Assembly: GCF_016598775.1 (NCBI RefSeq)
Contig: NZ_CP066802.1
Span: forward strand, 1,550,001-1,614,000
Reading direction: 5' to 3'
Source: Actinomyces weissii
GTDB taxonomy: Bacteria > Actinomycetota > Actinomycetes > Actinomycetales > Actinomycetaceae
Length of the DNA stretch: 64,000 nucleotides
The notes below the pieces were generated by a model. It had not been told where the DNA came from. It made no database searches and saw nothing but the letters and a program-made list of their open reading frames with translations. Shown here piece after piece: positions 39,720-57,657 of this stretch. Position numbers and translations under genes: made by a program. Numbering within the stretch: position 1 is the first letter of the stretch; the number at the start of each line of letters is the position of its first letter.

Positions 39720-40721
39720 ATGCCCAGTCGAGTGACCTTGGCGGATGTCGCCGCTGCCGCAGCAGTCTCCGCCCAGACGGTCTCGCGGGTGCTCAACGAC
39801 CACCCCTCGGTGCGTCCGGAGACCCGCAGGCGGGTGCTCAGCGCGGTCAGGTCCCTGGGCTACGAGCCGAACCTGGCGGCCCGCTCCCTGGCCGCAGGCT
39901 CCTCCGGTGCCGTGGGGATCCTGCTGACCACGGACCTTTCCCACGGCATGACCTCCACCTTCGCGGCCCTGGCCCGGGCGGTGCGCGAGCAGGGCGGGCA
40001 GTTCGTGCTGGCCACGGCTGACAGCGTCCGGCGCTCCTCTATCGAGGCCGCCCTGGCCCACCTGCGCGGTTACCGGGTCAAGGCCACCGTGGTGCTGACG
40101 CAGCGCGCCAACGTCCTGTCGGTACTGGCCTCCCAGCGGGACCCGGGTCCGGTGGTCACCGTGATCTCCGGGCAGCACGACTCGGAGGTGTTCCCCACCG
40201 TGTCCATCAACCAGGTGGAAGGAGCCCGCCTGGCCACCCGCCACCTCCTGGAGGGGGGTCGCAGGCGCCTGCTGCACGTCTCGGGCGACCTCTCCTGGCA
40301 GGACGCCTCCGAGCGCCTGGCCGCCTACCAGGACGCCTGCCTGCAGGCGGGCGTGCCGGACCGCTGGCTGTCCACCGGCTCCTGGACCGGGGAGGGCGGG
40401 GCGCGGGTGGCCCGCCGTCTGCTGGAGGACGGCCTGCCGGAGGGCGTATTCGCCGGCAACGACGACATCGCCCTGGGAATCTGCCACGAGCTGCTCGCAG
40501 CCGGGGTGCGGATTCCCGACGACGTCGCGGTGGTGGGCTTTGACGACGTCCCCCAGGCGCGCTGGGCCACGCCCTCGCTGAGCAGCGTCTTCCAGGACTT
40601 TGACGCCCTGGGGCGGGCGGCCCTGGCGGCAGCGCTGCGGCTGGTGGAGGACCGCCAGCCGCGCCACGAGGTGCTCACTCCCCAGCTGGTGGTGCGCGAC
40701 TCCTCCGCCACCAGGTCCTGA
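39720..40721 (+). CDS. LacI-family transcriptional regulator
   Basis: A 333-residue repressor. The helix-turn-helix is TLADVAAAAAVSAQTVSRVLNDHPSVRPETRRRVLSA and the hinge is NLAARSLA. The sugar-binding domain shows VGILLTTDLSHGM, NQVEGARLATRHLLEGGRRRLLHVSG, GVFAGNDDIALGICHELLAAGVRIPDDVAVVGFDDVPQARWATPSLSSV. It lies at the end of the fucose locus, facing fucP. A LacI-type palindrome in the fucI-fucA divergent promoter is a plausible target, so a fucose-pathway repressor is the best guess. Confidence 0.9.
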   Translation: MPSRVTLADVAAAAAVSAQTVSRVLNDHPSVRPETRRRVLSAVRSLGYEPNLAARSLAAGSSGAVGILLTTDLSHGMTSTFAALARAVREQGGQFVLATADSVRRSSIEAALAHLRGYRVKATVVLTQRANVLSVLASQRDPGPVVTVISGQHDSEVFPTVSINQVEGARLATRHLLEGGRRRLLHVSGDLSWQDASERLAAYQDACLQAGVPDRWLSTGSWTGEGGARVARRLLEDGLPEGVFAGNDDIALGICHELLAAGVRIPDDVAVVGFDDVPQARWATPSLSSVFQDFDALGRAALAAALRLVEDRQPRHEVLTPQLVVRDSSATRS

Positions 40722-40891
40722 TACAGGCCGTCCCGCACACGGCCGGACCCCAGCGACCGCCCCCGCTCACCCCACGCCGTCTGCCTGCTGCCCGGCCCGG
40801 AGGCAGCCGGGCACCCGCCCGGGGCAGGCCCGCGCCTCCGTCTGGTGGAGGCTGCCAGGCCCGCCCGGGCGGGCACTCGGAACGCCTTGCC

Positions 40892-42232
40892 TCAGGCCGT
40901 CGCGGCTGCGCTCACCGGCCGGGGCGTGCGCAGGGTGTACAGGCCGTAGGCGGCCACCACCAGGAAGCACCCGGCCACCGTGATGTAGGAGACGGCGGGT
41001 GAGGTCCGGTCCATGATGGCGCTCTGCACCAGCGGCATGGTGGCCCCGCCGATAATCACCATGACCAGCCCGGCGGCCCCGTACTTGGTGTCCTCCCCCA
41101 GGCCGGTCAGGGCCTCCCCGTAGATGGTAGGGAACAGCAGGGAGATACAGGCGGACAGCGAGATGATGGCCAGCACGCCGAGCAGGTTCACGCTGACCAT
41201 GGCGAACAGGGACAGCGCCACGCCCAGGGAGCACATGAGCAGGAGCAGCTTGCGCGCGTCGTAGCGGCCCATCAGCCCCACCATCAGGAACCGGAAGACC
41301 AGGAAGATGATCAGGCTGGCCTGGAGCCAGTACCCGGCCACCTTGTCCGTGACCCCCAGGGCCTCGGTGACGTAGTGCAGGGTGAAGGTCCAGATGCAGG
41401 TCTGGGCGGACACGTTGAAGTACTGCGCCACCACCCCGAAGCTGTAGCGCTTGTTGCGGACCAGGCGCATGAGGCGGCCCGGGCCGCCGCTGCCCTCCGC
41501 CTGGGCCTGCTCCGGCCGCTCGTGGACCTTGACGCGGCCGATCATCACGGCCAGCAGGATGTAGAGCAGCCCGAGGGCCACGTAGGGGCCCATCACGGCC
41601 TGGAGCTCGGCGCTCTGGGTGGCCAGCAGGGCCTCCTCGCTCATGGCGGCCCGCTGCTCGGCGGTGGCCGGGTTGACCTTGGGCAGGATCAGCAGGGCGG
41701 CCAGCAGCACCCCCAGGTTGGAGCCGATGGGGTTGAAGGCCTGGGCGAAGTTCAGCCGCCTGGTGGCGTTGTGCTCCGGCCCCATGGACATGACGAAGGG
41801 GTTGGCGCTGATCTCCAGGATGGACAGCCCGGCTGCCAGGGTGAACAGGGCGGTCAGGAAGACCGAGTAGGTCATCACGTAGGCGGCGGGGATGAACAGG
41901 AGTCCACCGGTTCCCGCCAGCACCAGCCCGATCAGCACCCCGCCCTTGTACCCCAGGCGGCTGTTGATGAAGGCCGCGGGGATCGCCAGGCAGAAGTAGG
42001 CCCCGTAGTAGGCCGACTGCACCAGGGAGGACTGCAGGTTGGTCATGGAGAACACGGAGCGGAACACCTTGACCAGGGGGTCGGTCATGTTCCCGGCCAG
42101 GCCCCAGGCCGCGAAGCAGGAGACCAGCAGGCAGAAGGGCAGCACCATCCCTGGGTAGAGGAAGCCTTTGTCCGCCGTCCCCTGGGAGGCGTCTGCGGGG
42201 GCCTGGGCGGTGGTGGTCCGGACGGCGGCCAT
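40892..42232 (-). CDS. fucP: L-fucose:H+ symporter (FucP-like MFS)
   Basis: A 446-residue 12-helix major-facilitator protein importing L-fucose with protons. FucP features include FAAWGLAGNMTDPLVKVF, SLVQSAYYGAYFCLAIPAA and GLSILEISANPFVMSMGPE, then RLNFAQAFNPIGSNLGVLLAA. ATG 42232 overlaps the fucU stop in TGATG. It is the last gene of the minus-strand operon fucI-fucK-fucU-fucP. The gene itself looks intact although every gene upstream is damaged. Its expression now depends on whatever promoter lies in or left of the island. Confidence 0.9.
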   Translation of the reverse strand: MAAVRTTTAQAPADASQGTADKGFLYPGMVLPFCLLVSCFAAWGLAGNMTDPLVKVFRSVFSMTNLQSSLVQSAYYGAYFCLAIPAAFINSRLGYKGGVLIGLVLAGTGGLLFIPAAYVMTYSVFLTALFTLAAGLSILEISANPFVMSMGPEHNATRRLNFAQAFNPIGSNLGVLLAALLILPKVNPATAEQRAAMSEEALLATQSAELQAVMGPYVALGLLYILLAVMIGRVKVHERPEQAQAEGSGGPGRLMRLVRNKRYSFGVVAQYFNVSAQTCIWTFTLHYVTEALGVTDKVAGYWLQASLIIFLVFRFLMVGLMGRYDARKLLLLMCSLGVALSLFAMVSVNLLGVLAIISLSACISLLFPTIYGEALTGLGEDTKYGAAGLVMVIIGGATMPLVQSAIMDRTSPAVSYITVAGCFLVVAAYGLYTLRTPRPVSAAATA

Positions 42233-42710: not shown

Positions 42711-43145
42711 TCAGCCGACGGCGTCGAGCAGGCGCTCCTGCATGAGGTTGAGCGCCTCTGGGTCAGCGGGCTCAACGGTGTGCGGGCGGACGGTGCGGGC
42801 CACTACCTGTGCCCGCTGGCCCGGGGCGATGGCTCCGGTGGCTTCCAGCTGGCTGAGCAGGTTGCCCAGGGCGCTGGCCTCGGTGGCCCCGACGACGACC
42901 TGGCGCCCGCAGGCGGAGGCGGTCATCTGGGCGAGCAGGGTGTTGCGGGCGCCGCCGCCCACCAGGTGCACGGGGGCGTCCGCGGCCAGGGCGGGGCCCA
43001 GCACCCGGCTGAGCTGCTCGGCGTAGGCGGCGTGGGCGCAGGCCAACGCCGCAGCCAGGGACCCCACGTCCCACCCAACGCCCTCAGGGCCAAGTCCCTC
43101 AAAGCGGATGAACGTGGTCAAGTCAGGGAGAGACCAGGGAAGCAC
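42711..43145 (-). pseudogene. fucK: L-fuculokinase/rhamnulokinase, C-terminal remnant
   Basis: Only the last 120-145 residues of an FGGY-type deoxysugar kinase remain. The conserved part is VHLVGGGARNTLLAQMTASACGRQVVVGATEASALGNLLSQL, the ATP-binding end of fuculokinase and rhamnulokinase. The first 25 residues of the present frame (MLPWSLPDL and on) do not look like the family, and base composition changes around 43080-43150. The original 5' part (some 340 residues) has therefore been replaced by the island. Operon position between fucI and fucU supports fucK. Confidence 0.8.
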
Positions 43146-43363
43146 TGGAAAGGCCTATGCCTTTCGGACGCGTTGGCCTAACAGCCCCTGCCATCGGAAG
43201 ACTTCGCCCGCCACCCAGGCAGCGACGCGCCCACATCCCCGACCACCCATAGCCTCGAAACCCACATGCCGAGGGCTAGGAAGAGCCATGCCACTGTTCT
43301 CATATTCTGAAACACCCACCCCTGCTATTGACAGGCTAATTGCATTAACCCTAGGGTCACCAT
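43146..43363 (+). promoter_or_regulatory. Upstream region of the island operon
   Basis: A 218-bp stretch without a gene. TTGACA at 43329-43334 is a good -35 hexamer, but no strong -10 lies 16-18 bp downstream (the best match is CTAGGG). AGGG 10 nt before the ATG at 43364 is a weak ribosome site. It is the only candidate promoter region for the island operon. Confidence 0.4.
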
Positions 43364-44464
43364 ATGGAGATGGTTTACGCATCAGTTCCACAACTGCCAG
43401 CAGAGTCAAACACAACACTGGAAGCCTCATTCCTCCCTGGGGTTCTTGATAAGTTAGTGCTTTCGCTGCTCCGGGAGTATCCACGCAAAACTTTTGGTTT
43501 CCTGTACGCAAACGAAGGCGAAACGAGCGTCGCAGACTATTACATCTTCCACGACGACGACCGCTCGAAGGAAGAAGTAGCTAGATCATTTGAGAGTATC
43601 GGCGAGTATTACCGACACAACAGCAATGCCGGCTTCCTGGCAACAGCAACAGAAGTTGTGGCAGAAAACGAACACCGCAAGGCAATGAGATATCGTCGCG
43701 TCGCCGCATTTCACACCCACCTTCGACATCCGGCATACTTTGCCGAAGTCGACCAGTAACTTCACCCTATTCCCAGCCTATGGCATTTCCTAGTTAGCCT
43801 TATAAACCCAGCACACCCAGAACTGGCCGCCTTCATGATCAAGGGAGGACAAGCCTTCCAGATACCCATCATTAATCAATCCAGCCCCTCTCCCACCATC
43901 ACACCCACCCTACAGCAGCCTCGCCTTCTCGACAGCGTCGAATTTCTCGACGTCGGGGGCGGGTTACAGGTCAGCAAGACAATGATAACAGTCGAGCAAT
44001 ACTATAAGGTATTCAGCTACGACATCCCTGAGTTCACTGACGCCCACTATCTCAACCAACCGATGGTAAACGTCTCCTGGAATGATGCCACTACATTTTG
44101 CACAATCACCGGAACAAGGTTATTAACTCCCGCAGAATGGGACAGATTGTGCGACGATCAGGTTGCCACACAAAGGCAAGGCATGAGAGCCCCGGAACTT
44201 CTTCAATATGCCGTGTTCAGCGAAAGTCCCAACAACCGCCTACAGAGAGTAGCAACAAAGAAACCTAACAAGTTTGGCCTCTATGACATGCTCGGCAATG
44301 CGTGGGAGTGGTGTGACAGCGCAAATCCCATTCAAGCCCCGAGCAAAGGCGGCAGCTACTTCTCTTTCGCAGAGATGTGCCGTTCGACCATCTCCGTCGA
44401 TCTACCAAAAACGTATCGCGCACGAGACCTGGGTTTTCGCGTCTGCTATAGGAGTAACTCATGA
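43364..44464 (+). pseudogene. JAB/MPN metalloprotease-FGE-like fusion, interrupted by in-frame TAA
   Basis: One continuous frame of about 366 codons broken only by TAA at 43757-43759. Upstream is a JAB/JAMM domain with the YPRKTFGFLYA glutamate region and FHTHLRHPAYFAEVD, where the usual Ser of HxH-x7-S-x2-D is Ala. After the stop the same frame continues LHPIPSLWHFLVSLINPAHPELAAFMIKGG, the end of the JAB fold. An FGE-sulfatase/SUMF1-like domain follows (PMVNVSWNDATTFC, TRLLTPAEWDRLC, FGLYDMLGNAWEWCD, GGSYF, LGFRVCYR). JAB proteases cleave sulfur-carrier adducts or tails. FGE-like domains do oxidative chemistry on Cys, or C-S bond formation. The second half could restart at ATG 43835, but no clear ribosome site is seen. 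Confidence 0.75.
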
Positions 44465-44700
44465 TCGCCACTTTCTTTGACTATACTGTAGAGTTCTCAA
44501 AAGTCAACCAGCTATCCGAAGTTGTCTCTATAATGGCGCAAGAATGCCCTGAGTTCACCGATGCGTGCCTGCTAGACCAGAAGAATCTTCACCCCTCTGT
44601 GATTGTAGTGGTTGATGGTGTAGTCATCAACCAAACAAGGGACTCCTGCCTCTCTGGCGCAAGTTCAGTGGAGTTTCTTCTACAATTGTCAGGAGGCTGA
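44461..44700 (+). CDS. ThiS/MoaD-like sulfur carrier ending in Gly-Gly
   Basis: A 79-residue beta-grasp protein. Its hallmark is the C-terminal QLSGG immediately before the stop, the site of adenylation and thiocarboxylation. The body alternates beta-like stretches (ATFFDYTVEFSKV, SVIVVVDGVVINQ) and helix (VVSIMAQECPEF) as in ThiS/MoaD. The ATG overlaps the preceding stop (ATGA). The partner enzymes, a JAB protease and an E1-like adenylyltransferase, flank it directly, as in CysO-Mec-MoeZ or thioquinolobactin-type systems. No C-terminal extension needs cleaving, so the JAB partner would act on adducts rather than on a precursor. Confidence 0.75.
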   Translation: MIATFFDYTVEFSKVNQLSEVVSIMAQECPEFTDACLLDQKNLHPSVIVVVDGVVINQTRDSCLSGASSVEFLLQLSGG

Positions 44701-44709
44701 CACTTCATC

Positions 44710-45450
44710 ATGTCAATACAGAACCCCGAAGTATTTCAGCGCCAACTTGCCATGCCTGATATCGGCCCCCGAGGACAAGCAGCTCTTGCGAGAGCCACTG
44801 TCGGAGTGGTCGGCGCGGGTGGACTTGGCTTCCCTGTTCTCAGTTATCTGGCAGCCGCAGGGGTAGGCAGTATCAAGGTTGTCGATTCTGACACCGTCAA
44901 TGTGACCAACCTGAATCGACAACTGTTCTACACATAAGTTGATGTGGGTGGTTACAAATCTCCGATCGCTGCCGAGCAACTATCCACGCGCTCCCCTTGC
45001 ACACAAGTAGTCGCGTCAGTCAGTCACATGACCGCTGAGAATGTAGCCTCGCTCCTAGAGGGATGTACGATAGTTGTAGACGCAGTAGACAATCTTGAGT
45101 CTCGCTATGTGCTCAGCAGATGGGCAGTCACTGCAGCAGTACCGGTAGTGTTCGGCGCTGTTGAAGAACTAAGAGGAGTGGTCTATGTATACAACCCTGA
45201 TTCAGACACTTCGCCTTGCTACGAATGCGTTTTCCCAAAGCGAGACAAGCCTCGAACCGCGCCAATTCCTATTCTCGGAGCAACAGCAGGAATTATCGGA
45301 TCGTGGCAAGCAGCGGAGGCCATCATGCACCTGTGCGGCCATCGGCACAGTCAGACGAACTTAATTCAGATGGACATCAAGCATTCTATACTGACGCGGC
45401 GCCCATGCTCAAGACGGGCCGACTGCTTTTGCCAACAAGGACGTTCATGA
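44710..45450 (+). pseudogene. E1-like ThiF/MoeB sulfur-carrier activating enzyme, in-frame TAA
   Basis: The full frame of about 246 codons has one internal TAA at 44935-44937. Before it are [17 protein letters not shown], the nucleotide loop [21 protein letters not shown] and [17 protein letters not shown]. After it are VDVGGYKS, VDAVDNLESRYVLS, VVFGAVEELRGVVYVY, zinc cysteines CYEC and CSRRADCFC, and PILGATAGIIGSWQAAEAI. The stop replaces the residue, usually Glu or Asp, that follows RQLFYT in the family. Intact, it would adenylate the carrier C-terminus. No frameshift or other defect is visible. The stop overlaps the next gene in ATGA. Confidence 0.85.
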
Positions 45451-46487
45451 ACACTCACAATGACGCTTACGGGCGGAGTTTATCACCATCTGAGTTAGAG
45501 GACAGTCTCCCACTTGTCTGCTATGAGAGGTCGCTCTATCACTTTGCAAGAAATCAAGCACTGCAGCATTTCTTCTGGCTCTACGCTGACAGACACTACC
45601 ATATGCATCATGTCCCGAACGTGAATGAAGCGCTCCAGTTCCAAGGCGATGGCCTCAGTCGCTTACTGAAACGAATTGAGAGTATTGAGACAGTACCACA
45701 CGAAGATATTCTTCCCCTGTTGCGCAACCGCCTCCGCCCCGGGACTCAGGCGCGTGCGATGTTACTAACCAACCGCCCCGATGGGACAGTATACAATACC
45801 AGCACACTTATCGAGGAGCCTTTTGACGACGGCTTCCTTGTAACTAAGACCAACGAGCAGAACCATAAGACTCGCACATATGTGTCAGGCAAGGATCTCC
45901 TGTCTCGGTTCTCCAGGTCCCCTGATAGGGTTTCCATAATCGGATTTCTCCACCTGGACCCCGGCCTTAAAGAGCAACTCTCCGGGCTCTCAGGCGCCAG
46001 GCTTCTCCGCTTCATCATGCTCGACCTGTACGGCTACCAGACTGCTGGAGAGGGTGGTATTTTGATGGACGGTCACGCAGTAGACGCATCCGCAAAGGCC
46101 CTATACAGGCTTGTTGACGAAGTTCAAGAAAACCGAAGTTCCATTATGAAGATTCAGACCGACAAGGGACTACAGCTCCGTTTAAACAAGCATATCGGTA
46201 ATAAGTTGCAGCCCTTGTGGAGGACATGGCGCCATCATCTCCTCAGAGACGCTGAGCTGGTTTCGCTTGCCCCCGAGGAGACTGTGCTGTCTTTGAAGAA
46301 AGCCGAAGATTGCTGCCAGCGTGATTACGCAGAGCTCCGTAAGCACTTCATACTATTCTACGGAAGACCTTCTGAAACCACTTTCAACAGTTATGTCCGC
46401 GCCCTTACCAGACTAGCCGAGACCCACCACGACTGGACACGATTAGCCGATAAATGCCTGACTTCAGTTATGCACGCCTCGCTGTAA
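45447..46487 (+). CDS. Unrecognised 346-residue island protein
   Basis: I do not recognise this family. The start ATG overlaps the E1 stop (ATGA). Visible features: LPLVCYERSLYHFARNQALQHFFWLYADRHYHMHHVP near the N-terminus is aromatic- and His-rich; the middle is mixed alpha/beta with PGTQARAMLLTNRPDGTVYN; and the C-terminal third is helical with several Cys/His (KKAEDCCQRDYAELRKHF, AETHHDW). There is no signal peptide or membrane helix. Its position between the sulfur-carrier genes and the ACP suggests a tailoring or condensing step in the pathway. Codon use is like its island neighbours. Confidence 0.6.
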   Translation: MNTHNDAYGRSLSPSELEDSLPLVCYERSLYHFARNQALQHFFWLYADRHYHMHHVPNVNEALQFQGDGLSRLLKRIESIETVPHEDILPLLRNRLRPGTQARAMLLTNRPDGTVYNTSTLIEEPFDDGFLVTKTNEQNHKTRTYVSGKDLLSRFSRSPDRVSIIGFLHLDPGLKEQLSGLSGARLLRFIMLDLYGYQTAGEGGILMDGHAVDASAKALYRLVDEVQENRSSIMKIQTDKGLQLRLNKHIGNKLQPLWRTWRHHLLRDAELVSLAPEETVLSLKKAEDCCQRDYAELRKHFILFYGRPSETTFNSYVRALTRLAETHHDWTRLADKCLTSVMHASL

Positions 46488-46496
46488 GGATCACTC

Positions 46497-46745
46497 ATGA
46501 CTAACTTTGTTGCATTGCTCCATGGGCTCCTACCTAAGGATATCCTAGCCCAAATCAGCTCTTCACCGCAGGATTATTTAGACCGACCGCTTACACACCT
46601 TGGACTAGATAGTTTATCGACCTTCGAAGTCCTAACTCGTATAGAGCAGGATCTCGGCCACGAACTGGACTACGAAACTATTGATCCTGACAGTCTCACA
46701 ACACTACGTGGACTGAGTAGCCTACTTGGTCGAAACGAGGTATGA
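46497..46745 (+). CDS. Acyl/peptidyl carrier protein
   Basis: An 82-residue carrier protein. LTHLGLDSLSTFEVLTRIEQDLGHELD contains the DSL motif whose serine receives 4'-phosphopantetheine, within a four-helix ACP pattern. It starts 9 bp after the unknown gene. The stand-alone adenylation enzyme and phosphopantetheinyl transferase downstream are probably its loading and priming partners. It is not the fatty-acid ACP: sequence and context differ. Confidence 0.88.
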   Translation: MTNFVALLHGLLPKDILAQISSSPQDYLDRPLTHLGLDSLSTFEVLTRIEQDLGHELDYETIDPDSLTTLRGLSSLLGRNEV

Positions 46746-46751
46746 GTTCTC

Positions 46752-47978
46752 ATGAGTAAGGTACTTATCTTTGCCGAGCCTTCCAGCATGCAGGCTCTGC
46801 GAACTGCCTGTGAGGAACTGGGCCACGAGCCAGTATTCCTTTCTGAGCGTGAAGCCACCACCCCCGAGCCGTTGCATGTCCTTAAAACTTTCGGGGACGC
46901 CGAGAAAACTGCAGCTGAGATACGTGAACGTTTTGCAGATCCTGTCGGTATTGTCAACTGTATTGAAGGGTACGTAGAACTTACTGAAACGTTGTCCCAG
47001 TTATTGAATCTACCAACAAAGAACGGTAAAGCTGCTTCGGCATTACGTGACAAGTCTGCCATGAAGAAATCTTGGATGGCCGCTGACGTCGCCACCCCAA
47101 GACTTTATTTTGCTGGCACAGAAGAGATTCCGCCATTAGAAAGCGACAACTTTCCGCTAGTCGTAAAGCCTGTATTCGGTGCTGCTAGTGCGGGTGTAAC
47201 TGTCGTGGACAACTTGGATGAGTTACAGCGTGCTCGTCGGGCCGTGCTCAGATTCAATGTTACGGCGCTTGCAAAAGAAGGACACGTTCATTCTGGAGTT
47301 CTGGTAGAGCAGTACATCGACGGGCCAGAATACTGCGTAGACCAGGTATGGAGCCAAGGACGTCCAGTCGCTAGCTGCGTTCTATCAAAAGGAGTTCCAG
47401 GCCGATCCGATCTTCTCGACCGTCTCTATATGGTCGACCCAACTATCCCCGATGGAATACATGCTCGCCTGGTGGACACGGCCACCAAGGCATGTGCCTC
47501 CGTAGGAGTTACCTGTGGGGCTACCCACACGGAAATCCGTATCGACCCCCGCGACGGCACTGCCTTTGTAATTGAAGCCGCTCTTAGACCTGGAGCCGGC
47601 TGTGGCTTGTACCCGGTCTACCAGCGCGCCTACGGTATCCCATTATTCAAAACCCTCGTAGCTGCGTGTACCGGATCTGATACTCCAGTTTACCCATCCG
47701 CCCCTCCTCGCGAATCAATGCGACACTATTGGTACAACACACCTTATATCGATTCCGGGTTCATTAAGGAGTTGAAAACTCCGCCCAACTTCTATAGTCA
47801 GCACCAATGCGTTGACAGGGTAATCTGGCGGCGCCGTGTCGGAGACTTTCTTCCTCGCGAGGGAACGACTTTCGGATACCTCGCCTGGTTCGAGGGCATC
47901 CTAGAGCCGGGAGACTCCCCTGAGGTCGTTTTGCAGGCAGCTGCCGCTGACCTTATTGTGAAGGTTGCTCATGACTAA
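46752..47978 (+). CDS. ATP-grasp carboxylate-amine ligase
   Basis: A 408-residue ATP-grasp enzyme. The central domain has NFPLVVKPVFGAASAGVTVVDN (phosphate loop and lysine), VLVEQYIDGPEYCVDQVW, and the metal-binding end THTEIRIDPRDGTAFVIEAALRPGAGCG, as in L-amino-acid ligases and BtrJ/carnosine-synthase-like proteins. The N-terminal preATP-grasp domain begins MSKVLIFAEPSSMQALRTACEELG. It probably forms an amide or ester bond between the carrier-bound or free acid and an amine. It starts 6 bp after the ACP gene and overlaps the MFS gene by 8 bp. Confidence 0.85.
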   Translation: MSKVLIFAEPSSMQALRTACEELGHEPVFLSEREATTPEPLHVLKTFGDAEKTAAEIRERFADPVGIVNCIEGYVELTETLSQLLNLPTKNGKAASALRDKSAMKKSWMAADVATPRLYFAGTEEIPPLESDNFPLVVKPVFGAASAGVTVVDNLDELQRARRAVLRFNVTALAKEGHVHSGVLVEQYIDGPEYCVDQVWSQGRPVASCVLSKGVPGRSDLLDRLYMVDPTIPDGIHARLVDTATKACASVGVTCGATHTEIRIDPRDGTAFVIEAALRPGAGCGLYPVYQRAYGIPLFKTLVAACTGSDTPVYPSAPPRESMRHYWYNTPYIDSGFIKELKTPPNFYSQHQCVDRVIWRRRVGDFLPREGTTFGYLAWFEGILEPGDSPEVVLQAAAADLIVKVAHD

Positions 47979-49230
47979 TTTTGTACTTCCTGCATTGCGT
48001 GATCCTAAACGTGCAATCCCTACCGGAATGCTAGTCTCGAATACCGGCAACGGAATGTACCTACTAGCGGTAAGCGTAATTCTTTATCGCTCGTCCGGCT
48101 CATCGGCAATGTTTGCCTGGCTGCTCGTCTACCAGTCTGCCGCGGTGCTTGGTATGCAGGTATTTGCTTCAGTGGGCGCAGACAGGGGCCACTCGCAGCG
48201 CCTCGCTGTCCTGGCCGAGATATGCAGGGCAACACTAGTTGCCTTTGGCGCACTTTTTGCAACCATGGGACACAGTTTAGCACTAGCCGTGACTGGGGTT
48301 CTCCTTAGTCTGGCACAGCCTTTTTTTCGCACATCGATCTTTAAGATTGGTCCACTCATCGCAGACGGTGAAGACCTTGCGCGCTATAATGCAAGAACCT
48401 CTACCTTTCAGCAGCTTGGCCAGTTCCTGGGCGCGGGTTCCGCAGGTGTATTAATGGGGTTCTGGCTATATCTACCCCTGTGGATCAACGCTCTAAGCTA
48501 CCTGGCTTCCGCATTCTTCACGTGGGTATGCACCGTTCCTGAGCAAGAGCCTTCGGTGCGATGGCGAACCTTCATCCCTCAACTCTTCCATCCGCAAAAG
48601 GCTGTACACGACTGGTGGGAGGCGTTCAAGTACTGCGTACACTCTCCTCTCATCTTCGGAATGTCTTTCTTAGCTGCCTCCGACCTGATATTCATTAATG
48701 TCATCAACATCGCCTACGCTCCGATGCTCTCTAGGCTAGGACTACAGGAGACCTGGATATCGGTATGGGACGTGTGTTTTGCCGTGGGAGCCATTGTTGG
48801 CGTCAATTTGTTTGGCAGGATGACGATTCTTCAGAGCCGATGGCAGGTTCCCGCCGTGTGCCTACTAGTGGAGGCGTTCCTTGCCTCCTATCTGTTGACG
48901 CAGTCAGCCTATACGGTGGCGATTGCAATGCTGCTGATCGGAACGATCAACTCAATCTCCGTTTCAGCATTCGCCTTCTTTCTCCAGACACACACCCAGA
49001 GAGCGATGATTGCCCGAATAGCAGGCGTAAGACAGTTCTGCCTTACCGCCCTTTCTGCGACACTTATGGGATATCTTTCCCACGGCATAGATCACAGCCA
49101 GTTAAGCGGTTTTATCCGAGTTAGTTCTGTACTTACGTTATCTGCGGTCGGAGTTGCTGTCTTGTTCGTTCTCGTTGGAAGACGCCGTTCACCATCCGTC
49201 GTACAGGGATGTGATTTACAGGATGAATAG
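47971..49230 (+). CDS. MFS transporter (island exporter)
   Basis: A 419-residue protein with about 12 hydrophobic helices, of the DHA/MFS_3-like group. It starts TNFVLPALRDPKRAIPTGMLVSNTGNGMYLLAVSVILYRS, with a charged loop GADRGHSQRLA after helix 2 and a central loop with RWRTFIPQLFHPQKAVHDWWEAF. ATG 47971 overlaps the ATP-grasp stop by 8 bp, and its stop overlaps the next start (ATGAATAG). In this operon it most likely exports the product or gives self-protection. Confidence 0.85.
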   Translation: MTNFVLPALRDPKRAIPTGMLVSNTGNGMYLLAVSVILYRSSGSSAMFAWLLVYQSAAVLGMQVFASVGADRGHSQRLAVLAEICRATLVAFGALFATMGHSLALAVTGVLLSLAQPFFRTSIFKIGPLIADGEDLARYNARTSTFQQLGQFLGAGSAGVLMGFWLYLPLWINALSYLASAFFTWVCTVPEQEPSVRWRTFIPQLFHPQKAVHDWWEAFKYCVHSPLIFGMSFLAASDLIFINVINIAYAPMLSRLGLQETWISVWDVCFAVGAIVGVNLFGRMTILQSRWQVPAVCLLVEAFLASYLLTQSAYTVAIAMLLIGTINSISVSAFAFFLQTHTQRAMIARIAGVRQFCLTALSATLMGYLSHGIDHSQLSGFIRVSSVLTLSAVGVAVLFVLVGRRRSPSVVQGCDLQDE

Positions 49231-50701
49231 TCCAGCAAACGCAATCTTGAGTTCCTTGGAGCACAACCGATCACGTACTGCAATTATCGACGGCGACACA
49301 ACCCTTACCTACGGCCAGTTACTCGAGCGGGCGCAGGAAGTTGCTGAACATATGACGCAGTCTTGTAAATCTGAACATAGTATGATAGCAGTACTGTGCG
49401 ACCGTTACTCTTTAGCAGTTACGGTTATCATTGGCTGCATCCTGTCAGGACGCCCTTATCTTCCTCTTGCCCCAGACACCCCTGCTGCTATGGTCGTTCG
49501 GCAGATGAGCAATGCCGGATCCCATTTTTTGGTCGCCGATAAGCTGCCGGTCGGACTTGGCTCATTAGTCTCACCATCTACCTCCCCTGAAGGCGCCTTA
49601 GGATTCTATACGCTAATGCAGCCTACCGCCTCAGCCAGCAGCTCTAATGATGCGTTATCCTCACAATGGGTTTACGCTTTGTATACTTCAGGATCATCAG
49701 GTAACCCTAAATGTGTTCCTCACGATTGGCATGACATCGAATGCATGGTGGCTTCTTACTCTCACGCCATTGGCCTCAATTCGGATGATCGCATCGCGAG
49801 TTTCGCTTCTATTGGTCACGACGCAGCGGTAGTTGATGTATTCTCAACCCTGCTACATGGCGCTACACTGATGCCTGCCAATCCTCGATCACCATTGACT
49901 CTGCTCAGCAGTGCACGTCGCATGATTACTCTCGGTGCCACTATCTGGCATTGTGTCCCGACGGTTCTTGATCTTTTAGCCAGCCACCTGCCGCCCGCCA
50001 GCATGAACGAGGTAAAAGTTGTTCTGGGGGGCGAAGCAGTTAGGCTCACCGCTCTCAAACATATATGGAATCTATCACCTGATGCCCAGTTCTACAGCCT
50101 TTACGGTCAAACTGAGTGTTCCGTCATTTCTGGATCCTGGATAACTAGAGACACAAGCGATACTATTTCCTTAGGTCATCCACTTGATGGCGTGGAATGG
50201 CGTACAAGTTCAGGCCCTCCGGGAGCCTCGCGTTTATGGATTAGTTCTCCCGCAGCTGCAACCCATAGAATCATCGAAGGTCGTTTCGTACGCACTCACG
50301 CTCGTTGTCAATGGCACGACACGGGTGACCTAGTCGAACTAAAAGGCGATTCGTTCGTCTTCGTGGGTCGCGATGACCAGGTGATTAACGTGGCCGGGCA
50401 TCGCGTTGACCTGCTAGAGATTGAGAAGTATGTCAACCAGATCGATGGAGTTCTCGACGCAGTAGCCGTTGCACGTCCCGCTTCAGATGGAACTACCTCT
50501 ATCGGTTGCGTGTTACACAGCGACCGTGGCAACATCTCAATTGCTGACATTAATTCTTTCCTGGATCTCCACCTGCCCCGCCGCCACCTGTTAACCGAAG
50601 TTCTTTGCTTAGATCACCCCCTTCCTCAGACCCTAAGCGGAAAACGAGACCGTAGAAGCGCTTCCGCCTTGCTGCCAGCAGGACCGGTCGGACACTTATG
50701 A
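49223..50701 (+). CDS. Stand-alone NRPS-type adenylation enzyme
   Basis: A 492-residue AMP-forming enzyme. Core motifs: A3 LYTSGSSGNPKCVPHDW, A4 region FASIGHDAAVVDVF with the Asp that usually binds an alpha-amino group, A5 FYSLYGQTECSV, A7 WHDTGDL, A8 GRDDQVINVAGHRVDLLEIE and A10 QTLSGKRDRR with the catalytic Lys. It should activate an amino acid and load the island ACP in trans; no fused carrier or condensation domain is present. The ATG at 49223 overlaps the MFS stop, and the stop overlaps the next start by 4 bp. All catalytic motifs look intact. Confidence 0.9.
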   Translation: MNSPANAILSSLEHNRSRTAIIDGDTTLTYGQLLERAQEVAEHMTQSCKSEHSMIAVLCDRYSLAVTVIIGCILSGRPYLPLAPDTPAAMVVRQMSNAGSHFLVADKLPVGLGSLVSPSTSPEGALGFYTLMQPTASASSSNDALSSQWVYALYTSGSSGNPKCVPHDWHDIECMVASYSHAIGLNSDDRIASFASIGHDAAVVDVFSTLLHGATLMPANPRSPLTLLSSARRMITLGATIWHCVPTVLDLLASHLPPASMNEVKVVLGGEAVRLTALKHIWNLSPDAQFYSLYGQTECSVISGSWITRDTSDTISLGHPLDGVEWRTSSGPPGASRLWISSPAAATHRIIEGRFVRTHARCQWHDTGDLVELKGDSFVFVGRDDQVINVAGHRVDLLEIEKYVNQIDGVLDAVAVARPASDGTTSIGCVLHSDRGNISIADINSFLDLHLPRRHLLTEVLCLDHPLPQTLSGKRDRRSASALLPAGPVGHL

Positions 50702-51369
50702 CCAATCTCCAGTTTCTAATTGGTGGACTCACCAGGTATGGATTAGTCGCGATAGAATCCTTCTCCCCGCTCCAGTGCATCCTGTTCCCTGAGGAGATTG
50801 CGTATCTTGAAGGCGCTTCTTTCGCTCGTCGCTCAGAGTTCAAGACTGTGCGCAGACTGGCGGCCGAGGCTCTTGCAACATTAAACATACGACGCCCCAT
50901 AATGGTTCCCTCTTATGGTGGCGCCCCAACCTGGCCCACTGAAGTAATTGGAAGCCTTACGCACTGCAAGGGATACGCGGCCGCCGCCATAGCCTATCGC
51001 GCCATCGTTGACGCGATAGGTATTGACGCCGAACGCAATATCCCTGTCACATCACGAACTTTCCAAATCGCCACTAATAAGACAGAGCAAGAATACCTAG
51101 ATACTGTTACATCCATAGATCCTACCATCACCAATCGCTTACTGCTCAGCGCGAAAGAAAGCGCCTTCAAGGCATGGTTCCCTAAAGAGCACAAAAAACT
51201 TTTGCTACGCGATATTAGGATAGAGATACATGCCGGTGGATCATTCTGCGCAAAACTCCCCATCGGCGGTCGAACATGTTCACTACATTACGGAAGATGG
51301 ATGCGGTCGGCAGACTTGCTGATCACAGCCTTTATTGTTCCCTCTGGCGAGTGGCCTACTCGCGATTAA
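50698..51369 (+). CDS. 4'-phosphopantetheinyl transferase (Sfp/EntD type)
   Basis: A 223-residue PPTase. Motifs: SLTHCKGYAAAAIA (the GSLSHC-like region), GIDAERN with the metal-binding Asp/Glu, and LLLSAKESAFKAWFP (the W/KExxxK motif). It transfers phosphopantetheine from CoA to the island ACP serine. It starts in the adenylation-gene stop (ATGA), is the last intact gene of the operon, and needs no change for activity as far as can be seen. Confidence 0.9.
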   Translation: MTNLQFLIGGLTRYGLVAIESFSPLQCILFPEEIAYLEGASFARRSEFKTVRRLAAEALATLNIRRPIMVPSYGGAPTWPTEVIGSLTHCKGYAAAAIAYRAIVDAIGIDAERNIPVTSRTFQIATNKTEQEYLDTVTSIDPTITNRLLLSAKESAFKAWFPKEHKKLLLRDIRIEIHAGGSFCAKLPIGGRTCSLHYGRWMRSADLLITAFIVPSGEWPTRD

Positions 51370-51518
51370 ACCTGATCCAGTTACGCTGGCTATATGTGAA
51401 CCCCTTACTCTTGACTCAGCCCGTTCTAGTAGCTTTTCCTAGTTGAGGACATAGTTTACCGGACGGTATGTTATTTTCTAGATATTGCCTCTTCCCATTT
51501 GAAGGTGTAGGTAGGATC

Positions 51519-52036
51519 GTGGACTGGGTGCCATTTCTCGGACAGAGGAGGTTTTTTGTCTCCTTTGATTCGATAGGATGGAGCCATGTCAAAGGCGAAG
51601 TACTGTGCTAAGTTTAAGGAGCAGATAGCGTAGGAGGTGGCCTTAAATGATCGTGCGATGGCGTCGGTGTCCGCTTCCTACTAACTGGCGCCCCAGACGG
51701 TAGTTAACTGGGTCACGAAGTACAAAAAGAGCACGTAAGCACCAAGGAGCGGCAGGCACACCTGAGGCCGTGAAGGTAACCTGCCTGAAGATACAGGTCC
51801 GCGAGCCGTGGCACGAGAACGAGTTCCTGATCAAGGCGGATTTGCTTACGAAGGAACAGCAGTGAGCAAGAACTACGATCCCCATTAATCGCGAGTAAGG
51901 CAACTACCCGGTCTTGGTGATGTGCCGTTGGTCAAGGGCGTCTTGGTTGGGCTACATGATCCTGGAGAAACCTGCCCCAAGCCCGTAGGGCCATAAGGAG
52001 GAAGGACTGGTCGAGATGATTTAGACCGAGTTCAGG
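51519..52036 (+). mobile_element. Degenerate IS3-family element
   Basis: TGGACTGGGTGCCATTTCTC at about 51520 resembles an IS3-type left end. A decayed OrfA follows at 51586-51865: MSKAKYCAKFKEQIA-stop-EVALNDRAMASV, later LAPQTVVNWVTKYKKS, then in another frame REPWHENEFLIKADLLTKEQQ, with at least four stops and a frameshift. A short OrfB start follows (about 51862-51990: [14 protein letters not shown]). The element is cut off where the fucI remnant begins, so no right end is seen. It is inactive and marks the right edge of the island. Confidence 0.75.
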
Positions 52037-52231
52037 GCCTCCGATCGCGGTCTTGGCGATCACGCAGCGCACGGGGGTGCCGTCGGGGTAGGTGAGGTTG
52101 GTGGAGATGAGCTCGGCGACGTCCTGGGCGAGCTGGCTCGTCTTCTCCTCCAGGGACTCACGGACCCCACGACGGCGTCCGTCGATCAGGGGCCGGATAC
52201 CGATGGCGGGGTAGGAGGCGTTCGGGGACAT
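51932..52231 (-). pseudogene. fucI: L-fucose isomerase, N-terminal remnant
   Basis: From ATG 52231 the frame reads [21 protein letters not shown], then [21 protein letters not shown] and [12 protein letters not shown], clearly the first 65 residues of fucose isomerase. From about 52037 onward the frame ([10 protein letters not shown] and on) is unrelated and derives from the IS3 remnant. About 520 of the usual 590 residues, including the metal site, are missing. It was the first gene of the fuc operon, divergent from fucA. Confidence 0.88.
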
Positions 52232-52276
52232 GGCAGGTTTCCCTTTCACTGGGCGGCTTTGACCAGATCACGCTTC

Positions 52277-52323
52277 TATGTGAGCGCAAACATAGTATGG
52301 TCACAGGTGGATCACGGCGTCAA
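52277..52323. promoter_or_regulatory. fucI promoter with LacI-type operator
   Basis: TATGTGAGCGCAAACATA at 52277-52294 is an 18-bp near-palindrome centred on CG, typical of LacI/GalR-family operators. On the minus strand TTGACG (52318-52323) and CATACT (52294-52299) are 18 bp apart, so the operator would cover the fucI transcription start. It also lies about 150 bp before fucA and could control both directions. Confidence 0.6.
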
Positions 52324-52442
52324 TATCCCAGTTGTCTTCCGCAGCCGTAGACATGAGAGCGCAATCATGAAACAGTGGTGGGCGCAGCCGCCGCAACGGG
52401 GCGCGACGTGGCGCCCGGACTGCAGGAAAGAGGAACACGCCC

Positions 52443-53108
52443 ATGCTTCTTCAAGACGCCCGGGAGCAGATCGCCGAGGCCTGCTCGCACCTGTGCGCCG
52501 ACGGGCTCGTCGTCGGCACCGCCGGAAACCTCTCCGTCCGCGAGGGGGACCTGCTCGCCATCACCCCTTCCGGCCTGCCCTACGAGGACATGCGGCCCGA
52601 CCTGGTGGCGGTGGTGGACTACCAAACCGGCCAGCAGGTGGACGGCCCCCTGAAGCCAGCCAGCGAGCTGGACCTGCACCTGACCACCCTGCGCACCACC
52701 GGCGAGAGCGCCGTCGTCCACACCCACTCCTATGCCGCCACCACCGTGGCCAGCCTGGAGGGGGTGACCACCCTGCCCGCGGTCCACTACTACATCTGCA
52801 TGTTCGGGGGCACCGACGTGCGGGTGGCCGACTACGCCGTCTACGGCTCCCCCGAGCTGGCCGCCAACGTGGCCAAGGCCCTGGAGGGGCGCACGGCCGC
52901 CCTGATGAGCAACCACGGCTCGGTGGTGGCCGGCCCTGACCTGCGCGCCACCTACACCCTGGCCCTGGAGCTGGAGTGGGTCTGCGAGCTCTACCTGCGC
53001 ACCCTGGCCGCGGGCACGCCCCGGATCCTCACCGACGAGCAGGTGGAGGAGGTGGCCCGCAAGATCCGGGACACCGGCTACGGCCAGTCCGCCCCGAAGG
53101 AGGGCTGA
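52443..53108 (+). CDS. fucA: L-fuculose-phosphate aldolase
   Basis: A 221-residue class II aldolase/adducin-family enzyme splitting L-fuculose-1-phosphate to DHAP and L-lactaldehyde. Motifs: GLVVGTAGNLSVREGDLLAITPSGLPYE (phosphate-binding Asn/Ser), KPASELDLHL (catalytic Glu region), VVHTHSYAATTVASL and SNHGSVVAGPDL (zinc histidines). AGAGGAA precedes the ATG. It is divergent from the fucI remnant and is the only enzyme gene of the pathway still complete here. Without fucI and fucK it would lack substrate unless copies exist elsewhere. Confidence 0.9.
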   Translation: MLLQDAREQIAEACSHLCADGLVVGTAGNLSVREGDLLAITPSGLPYEDMRPDLVAVVDYQTGQQVDGPLKPASELDLHLTTLRTTGESAVVHTHSYAATTVASLEGVTTLPAVHYYICMFGGTDVRVADYAVYGSPELAANVAKALEGRTAALMSNHGSVVAGPDLRATYTLALELEWVCELYLRTLAAGTPRILTDEQVEEVARKIRDTGYGQSAPKEG

Positions 53109-53256
53109 GCCCGCCGTCCCGGAACAGGGATGACCCCACCGTCTCGCAGGAGGACTGAGCCCGCCGTTCCGCAGGAAGGCTGAGACCGCAGCCTCACAGG
53201 AGGGCTGAGCCCGCCGTTCCGCAGGAAGGCTGAGACCGCAGCCTCACAGGAGGGCT
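53103..53256. repeat. 25-bp-based tandem repeat after fucA
   Basis: Two identical 50-bp units (53157-53206 and 53207-53256), each made of two related 25-bp halves (GGCTGAGCCCGCCGTTCCGC and GGCTGAGACCGCAGCCTCAC types), preceded by two more degenerate halves that begin at the fucA stop codon. No gene or terminator is apparent in it. Confidence 0.8.
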
Positions 53257-53341
53257 GGCCTCCACCACCCAGGAGAAGGACGGCCCAGCCGTCCCCGGAC
53301 GCTGCTTGCGCTCGGCCGGGAGCTCCCCCTAGCATCAGCCC

Positions 53342-53377
53342 ATGCGCAAGACGACCTGCACCTGGTGGCCCGCCTGA
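53342..53377 (+). CDS. trpL: trp leader peptide
   Basis: A small frame encoding MRKTTCTWWPA followed by TGA, with tandem Trp codons. TAGCAT (53330-53335) lies 6 nt before the ATG and TTGCGC (53306-53311) 18 bp further up, so the transcript is predicted to start at the ATG (leaderless). It lies 152 bp before trpB within an attenuator, where ribosome stalling at the Trp codons would report low charged tRNA-Trp. It is too short for normal gene finding. Confidence 0.75.
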   Translation: MRKTTCTWWPA

Positions 53378-53453
53378 TAGGCGAGCCCACATGCAGGTAG
53401 TCCACGCAACCGGCTCGCACCTCACCCCCCGAGGCAGCGGGCCGGTCGCTTTT
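53365..53453 (+). terminator. trp attenuator
   Basis: Four mutually exclusive segments can be read. Region 1 (53365-53375, GTGGCCCGCCT) covers the second Trp codon and pairs with region 2 (53379-53390, AGGCGAGCCCAC). Region 2 can instead pair with region 3 (53409-53418, ACCGGCTCGC) through GCGAGCC/GGCTCGC. Region 3 pairs with region 4 (53437-53446, GCGGGCCGGT), with one G-U, to form a terminator followed by CGCTTTT. Stalling at the Trp codons frees region 2 and prevents termination. Confidence 0.75.
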
Positions 53454-53493
53454 GCGGCAGCCTGGCTGCGCAGGGGGCCCCACAGAAAGGCCC

Positions 53494-54879
53494 ATGAACA
53501 TGAACAGCCCTAGCACCCCCGCACCGGAGATCCGTCTGCGTGACACGCTCCTGAACGCCTACTTCGGCGAGTACGGGGGCCAGTACGTGCCCGACCAGCT
53601 GCTGCCGGTGCTCGACGAGCTGGAGCGGGCCTACGTGGAGGCCCTGGCCGACCCGGGCTTCCTGGCCGAGCTCGACCGCCTGCAGCGCGAGTACCTGGGC
53701 CGCCCCACCGCCGTCACCGAGTGCGCGAACCTGCCCCTGCCCGGGCACGGCCGCGGCAAGGCCCGGATCTTCCTGAAGCGGGAGGACCTGGTGCACGGCG
53801 GTGCCCACAAGGGCAACCAGGTACTGGCGCAGGCCCTGATCGCCAGGCGCATGGGCAAGACCCGCCTGGTGGCGGAGACCGGCGCGGGCCAGCACGGCAC
53901 CGCCACCGCCATGGTCGCGGCCCTGATGGGCATGGACTGCACCATCTACATGGGGGCCACCGACGTCGCCCGCCAGCAGCCCAACGTGCGCCGCATGCGT
54001 CTGATGGGGGCCACCGTGGTGCCGGTGACCAATGAGGACGGCGGCTCCATGTCCAACGCGATCGACGTGGCCCTGGGCGACTGGGTGGAGAACCTGGCCA
54101 CCACCCACTACCTGCTGGGCTCGGCCTGCGGCCCCCACCCCTTCCCCACCCTGGTGCGGGAGTTCCAGTCCGTGATCTCGCGGGAGTCGCGCGCCCAGAT
54201 GCTGGAGCGCACGGGGCGGCTGCCGGACTACGTGGTGGCGGCCGTGGGCGGGGGCTCCAACGCTATCGGCGCCTTTGCCGAGTACTTGAAGGACGAGCCG
54301 GGCAACGAGCAGGTGCGCCTGGTGGGGGTGGAGCCTGCCGGTGAGGGGCTGGAGACCTCCCGCCACGGGGCGCCGCTGAACCGGGGCGTGGTGGGGGTGC
54401 TGCACGGCTCGCGCTCCTACGTGCTGCGCTCCTCCGACGGCGACCTGGGCGAGTCCTTCTCAGTGTCCGCGGGCCTGGACTACCCGGGGGTGGGGCCGGA
54501 GCACGCCCACCTGATGGACACGGGCCGGGCCACCTACGTGGGGGCGGACGACAACGAGGCCCTGCAGGCCTTCCGGCTGCTGAGCCGCTACGAGGGCATC
54601 ATCCCGGCCCTGGAGTCCTCCCACGCCCTGGCCCACGCCCTGCGGATCGCCCAGGAGCTGGAGGGGCAGGAGGTCGCCGAGCCGGTGAGCATCCTGGTGA
54701 ACCTCTCGGGCCGGGGGGACAAGGACATGGAGTACGTGCAGAACGTGCTGGGCGAGCTGATGTTCGCCGACCCCGCCCAGGTGCCCACCAAGGGGCTGCG
54801 CATCTCGGAGATCCTGCGGATGATGACGGCGGAGTCCAACGCCCGCGAGGCGGGGCGCTCCGTGGCGCACCAGGGCTGA
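53494..54879 (+). CDS. trpB: Tryptophan synthase beta chain
   Basis: A 461-residue PLP enzyme joining indole and serine. Landmarks: NAYFGEYGGQYVPDQLLPVLDELE, the PLP-lysine motif REDLVHGGAHKGNQVLAQAL, ETGAGQHGTATA, GGGSNAIGAFAEY, LDYPGVGPEHAHL, ALESSHALAHAL and VNLSGRGDKDM. The PLP motif resembles the enterobacterial HGGAHKTNQ form more than the HTGAHKINN form I expect in most actinobacteria. About 60 extra residues lie at the C-terminus. No trpA or other trp gene is adjacent, so it is a stand-alone attenuator-controlled trpB. ATG 53494 or 53500 may be the start. Confidence 0.93.
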   Translation: MNMNSPSTPAPEIRLRDTLLNAYFGEYGGQYVPDQLLPVLDELERAYVEALADPGFLAELDRLQREYLGRPTAVTECANLPLPGHGRGKARIFLKREDLVHGGAHKGNQVLAQALIARRMGKTRLVAETGAGQHGTATAMVAALMGMDCTIYMGATDVARQQPNVRRMRLMGATVVPVTNEDGGSMSNAIDVALGDWVENLATTHYLLGSACGPHPFPTLVREFQSVISRESRAQMLERTGRLPDYVVAAVGGGSNAIGAFAEYLKDEPGNEQVRLVGVEPAGEGLETSRHGAPLNRGVVGVLHGSRSYVLRSSDGDLGESFSVSAGLDYPGVGPEHAHLMDTGRATYVGADDNEALQAFRLLSRYEGIIPALESSHALAHALRIAQELEGQEVAEPVSILVNLSGRGDKDMEYVQNVLGELMFADPAQVPTKGLRISEILRMMTAESNAREAGRSVAHQG

Positions 54880-55715: not shown

Positions 55716-55944
55716 CTCCGCTGTAGTGAAGTCGGGAGGCCCAAGCCCAGCCGCCAGGTGATGGGCCCAGTCCTGACTGAGGGCAATGCACCCCCGGCCA
55801 GCCCACACCGGGTCTTCCACCTGCGGCCCCGACTCCGCTGTAGTGAAGTCGGGAGGCCCAAGCCCAGCCGCCAGGTGATGGGCCCAGTCCTGACTGAGGG
55901 CAATGCGCCCCCGGCCAGCCCAGACCGGGTCTTCCACCTGCGGC
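55716..55944. repeat. 117-bp tandem duplication
   Basis: The segment beginning CTCCGCTGTAGTGAAGTCGG at 55716 repeats at 55833 with only a few changes (for example CACACC versus CAGACC). The two copies fill the gap after rsmD. No start, ribosome site or domain supports a gene in them. Confidence 0.85.
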
Positions 55945-56035
55945 CCCCAGACGGCCTCCTACGCCAGGCCCGCACCCCTAGCCCGCAGGCCCGACCCCTC
56001 ACCCGCATGTCCGGCCCCTCAATCCGCGGCGAGCA

Positions 56036-56265: not shown

Positions 56266-56411
56266 CCCAGCGGCACACTCTCGCGTTCACGAACAAGGAC
56301 ACCCATAAACGTCCATCAAGCGAAAACCAAGGCCCCGAGCGCCGCAATCACCTCACCAAGACGAATTACAACTGGCCCGTAGTGGCACACCGTGCCAACT
56401 TTTCTGCCAGT

Positions 56412-57536: not shown

Positions 57537-57657
57537 CCTGGCCCCCAGAATCCTTGCAATCACGCCACTTCCAGGACCCAGAGCGCCACAGGCCCCGCAA
57601 GCACCCCACAGGACCGGCCAGCACACCCCCACTATACCCACTTTTCGGCCCAATCAA
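57537..57657 (-). promoter_or_regulatory. Candidate CRISPR leader/promoter
   Basis: On the minus strand TTGATT (57652-57657, spacing 15) or CTTGAT (57653-57658, spacing 16) precedes TATAGT (57631-57636), pointing into the array about 95 bp before the first full repeat. This agrees with the degenerate repeat lying at the opposite end. The next 170 bp up to recG hold nothing I can identify. Confidence 0.45.

Follow-up and report, generated by a model that had tools for sequence, protein, structure and literature searches.

What does a bacterium make, or what did it once make, with an operon that joins a ubiquitin-like protein, an E1-type enzyme and a JAB protein to the machinery of amino-acid activation and ligation? 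The question is raised by Actinomyces weissii, where nine genes fill positions 43364-51369 on the plus strand of the 64,000-nucleotide window that is the whole stretch of DNA analysed here (contig NZ_CP066802.1, positions 1,550,001 to 1,614,000, of a single-contig genome of 2.56 Mb). In order, they encode a JAB-FGE fusion, a ubiquitin-like carrier, an E1, an orphan protein, an acyl/peptidyl carrier protein (ACP), an ATP-grasp ligase, an MFS exporter, a stand-alone amino-acid adenylation (A) enzyme and a phosphopantetheinyl transferase (PPTase). The operon is real, coherent, unusual and biosynthetic. We give about an even chance to the reading that it was acquired horizontally for the production of a small exported metabolite derived from amino acids, and that it is now inactivated in this strain. 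What the sequence itself establishes is the single operon, the nine protein families, a second copy in a congener, purifying selection on both copies and the lesions now present; the roles of the enzymes are inferred from it.

The open reading frames (ORFs) of the operon are tightly packed: neighbouring genes overlap at five of the eight junctions, and gaps of 6-9 bases separate them at the remaining three. Scans for promoters and terminators gave no signal beyond shuffled expectation (7 against 6.6, 9 against 7.3). A sequence-only reading of this DNA had named the nine proteins, on one strand and in this order, as a single operon, and this is borne out by the coding limits, by the junctions and by the conserved order in the congener. 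The range that it gave (43146-52036) holds the operon and is slightly too wide, as it takes in the junctions with a neighbouring fucose operon.

The congener, G009, carries all nine genes in unchanged order (L003:6501-14585), and the two islands are 79.6% identical in a single blastn alignment of 8097 columns. From this one sequence pair, with dS as high as 1.08, we calculated Nei-Gojobori ratios of non-synonymous to synonymous substitution (dN/dS) in ten main comparisons, which cover eight of the nine genes, the ACP being left out. The ratios lie between 0.065 and 0.207, with the now-interrupted genes included: JAB core 0.065 (the lowest measured), MFS protein 0.074, FGE domain 0.106, ATP-grasp ligase 0.108, orphan 0.145, ubiquitin-like carrier 0.148, PPTase 0.156, the two parts of E1 0.158 and 0.182, and A enzyme 0.207. 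A 40-codon linker gave 0.269. Given these low values, selection acted on the pathway over most of the period after the copies separated. Together with the common gene order, they mean that the operon is one selected pathway and not a chance assembly.

Both copies appear damaged, and the pathway is predicted to be interrupted in this strain. Seven of the nine window genes are uninterrupted; the JAB-FGE and E1 genes, which the sequence-only reading had listed, are present, each broken by one in-frame TAA (Table 1). The homologous cluster with intact JAB-FGE and E1 genes that it had proposed to look for exists in part: in G009 the E1 gene is uninterrupted, but the JAB-FGE gene has two frameshifts, and the ACP gene has one (in an alignment with one gap). 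Sequencing error may lie behind the stops or frameshifts in either genome. The loss of the operon looks recent. The sequence-only reading had missed, or only hinted at, the interruption of the pathway, the horizontal insertion into a truncated fucose operon and the existence of another copy, itself damaged.

One half of the operon looks built to assemble a dipeptide-like product and move it out of the cell, and this predicted work of the A enzyme, ACP, PPTase, ATP-grasp ligase and MFS protein is the best-supported part of our proposal. The A enzyme matches AMP-binding (E 7.5e-46) and the amino-acid adenylation domain TIGR01733 (2.1e-57), with linear gramicidin synthase A as its closest solved relative (1.1e-46). 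Its ten-residue code, read by eye at what we take to be the GrsA positions, has Asp first and Lys last; it resembles codes for alpha-amino acids and names no single amino acid. The ACP matches PP-binding (9.6e-7) and keeps its DSL motif in the window copy, and the PPTase matches 4PPT_N (1.5e-17), ACPS (2.8e-7) and PptT (3.6e-27). For the ATP-grasp ligase (ATP-grasp_4, 3.7e-25) the closest solved relative is the L-amino acid ligase BL00235 (3vot; 9.1e-26), followed by D-Ala ligases and BacD (9.3e-9); the fold is nearest to ligases that make dipeptides, and such an activity is predicted here. The MFS gene (MFS_1, 1.2e-13; TIGR00900, 3.4e-20) directly follows. No condensation or thioesterase domain was found in the nine proteins, in agreement with the sequence-only reading.

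The other half is the ubiquitin-like module. The carrier ends in GG and adjoins the E1, and its family matches are weak: the window copy reaches SAMP1 at E 0.001, and the G009 copy reaches ThiS at 0.0023 and Urm1 at 0.0042. The E1 carries CxxC motifs and matches ThiF in both window pieces (2.2e-23 and 8.4e-29) and in the G009 copy (4.3e-59). The latter, of 250 aa with its ThiF domain at 13-243, also matches MoeB/ThiF models (e.g. 3.1e-56), and among 396 genomes of the phylum its best matches outside the island reach 156 bits and 36% identity. In the fusion protein the FGE-sulfatase match is clear (3.8e-22) and spans profile positions 83-253 of 255; the Prok-JAB match is weak (0.0064, under Pfam's cut-off), and the JAB metal ligands, HxH (as HTH) and Asp, are retained in both islands. 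The orphan found no credible family in profile searches. A comparison with 17 members of the BtrH_N acyltransferases gave an hhalign probability of 0.1%, from an insensitive query profile of two rows, and lends no support to placing the orphan in that family.

In the pathway that we propose, the PPTase would arm the ACP, the A enzyme would adenylate an alpha-amino acid and load it onto the ACP, and the E1 would adenylate the ubiquitin-like carrier at its terminal GG. From the carrier, the aminoacyl unit on the ACP would then receive sulfur (as a thiocarboxylate) or some other group. The JAB-FGE protein, with its metal site and altered JAB active site, may serve with the orphan in tailoring and transfer. 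Once the unit is released, the ATP-grasp ligase could couple it to another amino acid, as L-amino-acid ligases do when they make dipeptides, and the MFS protein would export the product.

The sulfur step is the weakest in this scheme, and a number of observations weigh against the proposal. Taking the JAMM motif as we presume it to be, the JAB domain has Lys for the catalytic Glu and Ala for the oxyanion Ser, whereas all 25 references keep Glu and Ser (these are 25 of the loci listed from 43 genomes with matches; the HxH-D pattern used to extract them accepted Ser, Ala, Thr or Pro but was biased towards the Glu motif). It is therefore doubtful that this JAB performs the usual release step. In the FGE domain, with the SUMF1 cysteines placed where we take them to be, a Ser seems to stand opposite the first copper Cys and the second Cys to be kept, in a weak alignment (-1.9 bits). 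The E1 lacks a rhodanese (profile search of the G009 copy) and, in both islands, the crossover-loop Cys. The operon holds no sulfur-mobilising gene. As the host genome has no second E1 at E<=1e-25 and no Prok-JAB match at E<=0.001, primary metabolism offers no obvious helpers. Furthermore, the role of the orphan in the pathway is a guess, and the searches found no operon with all nine genes intact and hence no known producer strain.

Two of these features call for qualification. The Lys and Ala of the JAB domain are a kept property and not decay, because the G009 copy shares them and the JAB core, 92.1% identical between the copies, has the lowest dN/dS. The missing crossover Cys is not unique to the island E1, because it is also absent from four of the best 12 other E1s listed and present in eight (the column table held the 87 full-length, stop-free sequences among 138 tblastn matches). 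The sequence-only reading had proposed thiocarboxylate sulfur from the carrier, E1 and JAB set. The carrier, the E1 and the JAB fold are indeed present, and a textbook sulfur relay is possible from family resemblance; the altered JAB, the apparent Ser in the FGE domain and an E1 without crossover Cys or rhodanese leave such a relay unsupported. A bolder form of our proposal, tentative and rather doubtful, is that the operon encoded a new carrier-assisted peptide synthesis, with the ubiquitin-like protein and the ACP acting on the same aminoacyl unit. The JAB domain (Glu and Ser replaced by Lys and Ala, metal ligands and sequence strictly kept) would once have been a protease that, on fusing with an FGE-like domain, became a metalloenzyme for tailoring or sulfur transfer, and a transferase of a new family would replace the condensation and thioesterase domains.

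Among the alternatives, the one that survives best, and which we nevertheless consider unlikely, makes the ubiquitin-like protein a covalent scaffold. Its GG tail would be amide-linked to an amino acid by the ATP-grasp ligase or the E1, and the amino acid modified while bound and then released, on the model of amino-group-carrier pathways of the LysW kind. Such a role would explain the absence of sulfur genes, as well as of rhodanese and crossover Cys. It would also account for the presence of an ATP-grasp carboxylate-amine ligase and for the grouping of carrier and E1 with a JAB fold, which usually frees adducts of this kind. However, this JAB lacks the Glu and Ser of hydrolytic JABs, an alteration that the scaffold leaves unexplained, and the ATP-grasp ligase is nearest to free amino-acid ligases and not to LysX.

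Less probable, in our estimate, is that the island is a pseudogene heap of no consequence. The stops in two window genes, the frameshifts in two G009 genes and the location within a truncated fucose operon are what such a heap would show, but dN/dS is low in every main comparison, seven of the nine window genes are open, and, with a loss that looks recent, decay bears on the present state of the operon and not on its former nature. Very improbable is a ubiquitin-like protein-tagging or anti-phage system (Bil/CBASS-like) beside an unrelated biosynthetic set: a ubiquitin-like protein, E1 and JAB fold are adjacent and the E1 matches PADLOC E1-E2 models (the only kind of model among the 25 matches listed of 32), but of the six proteins given to PADLOC the carrier, JAB, FGE and ATP-grasp had no match and the orphan reached only E 0.025, no E2 was seen, and the genes of the ubiquitin-like module overlap the biosynthetic genes and are kept together with them in G009.

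The operon can also be set beside known systems. The sequence-only reading could not name the pathway, and the same is true here: no description of such an operon was found in the full-text literature searched, with most subscription journals outside the search. The pdt and qbs clusters for pyridine-2,6-dithiocarboxylic acid (PDTC) and thioquinolobactin likewise bring an AMP-forming ligase together with a GG carrier, an E1-like enzyme and a JAB protein; their E1 has a rhodanese, and the PDTC clusters add a CaiB-like transferase (PMC1779556). Compared with these clusters, the island differs in several respects. Their substrate is an aromatic acid, whereas the island A enzyme is of the amino-acid type and comes with an ACP; in the island the altered JAB is joined to an FGE, and an ATP-grasp ligase and the orphan are present; and the island E1 has no rhodanese. 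Profile searches of the nine operon proteins found no CaiB-like CoA transferase. With the rhodanese and CaiB features lacking, we do not file the operon as a member of the PDTC/thioquinolobactin group. The thioacid cassette PtmA3/PtmU4 of thioplatensimycin is alike in its proposed chemistry, thioester activation followed by sulfur from a carrier protein, but its carriers are encoded elsewhere in the genome (PMC6006322).

Carrier, E1 and JAB fold are also common to the island and to CysO-MoeZ-Mec cysteine synthesis, from which the island differs in a JAB without Glu and Ser and in an operon without a cysteine synthase homologue. In that pathway MoeZ includes a rhodanese, and the JAB site of Mec is complete. 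The other half of the operon recalls pairs of L-amino-acid ligase and MFS protein (BL00235; BacD/BacE), since the island ATP-grasp is nearest to 3vot and more weakly to BacD, and the MFS gene is next to it. BacD and BacE are the ligase and MFS exporter pair of bacilysin, for which we know of no ACP, A enzyme, carrier or E1. Finally, the p251 plasmid of Vibrio tubiashii has A enzyme, ATP-grasp and MFS genes side by side (MFS 26% identical), so these three travel together elsewhere too. Unlike the island, the p251 cluster has citrate-synthase-like and aconitase-like genes, and no carrier, E1, JAB or FGE is annotated in it. Most parts of the operon are familiar; what the sources searched do not contain is the combination, the altered JAB-FGE fusion and the orphan.

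The operon is very rare in the samples searched. In genome samples that overlap one another, the orphan was found in two of 149 relatives (A. weissii itself and G009), one of 394 class genomes and one of 307 order genomes (A. weissii in each case), and strong matches came from two of 213 family genomes. A third family match (G080, E 0.0109) was judged unrelated on our own reading of the matched stretch, and a search of 18 genomes gave three weak matches (E 0.05-0.33). Plasmids and viral contigs held no match to the orphan, and plasmids none to the JAB piece; plasmid searches with the E1, ATP-grasp, A enzyme, MFS protein and FGE piece returned distant relatives only, and one of six regions inspected, that of Vibrio, resembled part of the operon. 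A motif scan for E1 yielded 115 stretches, all of which were searched by tblastn with 14 island query sequences (E<=0.01). Within these loci of up to 8 kb, whose edges bound the neighbours seen, the only matches beyond E1 were a weak one to the carrier (L161, 28.9 bits) and a weak one to the MFS protein (L177, 36.2 bits). By our reading of its ORFs, L161 is an aldehyde ferredoxin oxidoreductase/MoaD/MoeB set and was rejected as a relative. A scan for ATP-grasp relatives outside the genus gave 34 pattern stretches, none of them confirmed.

The island is a horizontal insertion, foreign to its host genome: it has about 52% G+C within DNA of about 70% (0.515-0.521 in four 2-kb bins at 44001-52000, against 0.712 at 40001-42000 and 0.695 at 52001-54000). 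Profile searches identified, on the left, a C-terminal piece of an FGGY kinase together with FucU and an MFS permease (FucP by our own reading) and, on the right, the N-terminal remnant of a fucose isomerase and a class II aldolase. With these remnants at its edges, the island occupies a truncated fucose operon that has lost the last part of fucI and the first part of the kinase gene. The kinase piece was matched in 13 of 18 genomes of the genus, five of them at 53-55% identity in frames of 493-511 aa. Positions 51370-51930, which separate the island from the isomerase remnant, are degraded and possibly insertion-sequence-like, with a single copy in the genome. An insertion sequence at this edge was considered and not accepted, the IS3-like look of 51580-51900 being an impression only, of a stretch present once in the genome, and an ORF in the G009 flank having no Pfam match.

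In G009 the island lies directly behind rsmD, outside the fucose operon, and the different sites suggest either separate acquisition or relocation. Judged by divergence, separate acquisition first seemed clear from the dS of the host genes trpB (0.154) and rsmD (0.201), and recG gave 0.299; but the island range (0.547-1.078 in the main comparisons) also takes in coaD (0.642) and a SepIVA-like gene (0.639), so divergence by itself is no proof. A LacI comparison was excluded because its coordinates were wrong. The G009 fucose operon (L003 1534-4294) is likewise fragmented, with no island inside, by our reading of its ORFs; we read the fucose locus as decaying in both species by different routes. 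Where G009 has the island behind rsmD, the window has a CRISPR-like array instead. The array (56405-57540, between rsmD and recG) has 16 repeats of about 37 bases spaced at 71-75 bases, and its repeat had no match in G009 L003 with up to 3 mismatches allowed. Just behind rsmD, two tandem 115-base copies, 98% identical, stand at 55716-55947.

Table 1. Features of the island and its edges in the window.
Feature	Position	Strand	Basis
JAB-FGE fusion gene with one in-frame TAA at 43757-43759	43364..44464	+	ORFs 43364-43759 and 43835-44464, same frame
Ubiquitin-like (ThiS/MoaD/Urm1-like) carrier, 79 aa, C-terminal GG	44461..44700	+	ORF; weak SAMP1, ThiS and Urm1 matches
E1/ThiF-type adenylating enzyme with TAA at 44935-44937	44710..45450	+	ThiF match in both pieces
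Orphan protein, 346 aa	45447..46487	+	No credible family
Stand-alone ACP, DSL motif	46497..46745	+	PP-binding
ATP-grasp ligase, L-amino-acid ligase type	46752..47978	+	ATP-grasp_4; 3vot
MFS exporter	47971..49230	+	MFS_1; TIGR00900
Stand-alone A enzyme	49223..50701	+	AMP-binding; TIGR01733
Sfp/PptT-type PPTase	50698..51369	+	4PPT_N; ACPS; PptT
DNA common to window and second island in G009	43297..51374	.	blastn
FGGY sugar kinase, C-terminal remnant, left insertion edge	42711..43145	-	FGGY_C positions 119-194 of 198
L-fucose isomerase, N-terminal remnant, right edge	51932..52249	-	Fucose_iso_N1 positions 1-61 of 169

The significance of this operon is bounded by the state of its two known copies, neither of which is intact. 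If our reading is true, the orphan would be a new enzyme family, and the JAB fold would have been under strong selection after the loss of its hydrolytic residues. Furthermore, the operon would bring the chemistry of ubiquitin-like proteins, whether as sulfur carriers or as scaffolds, together with amino-acid thioesters and dipeptide ligases; the literature searched has no such combination.

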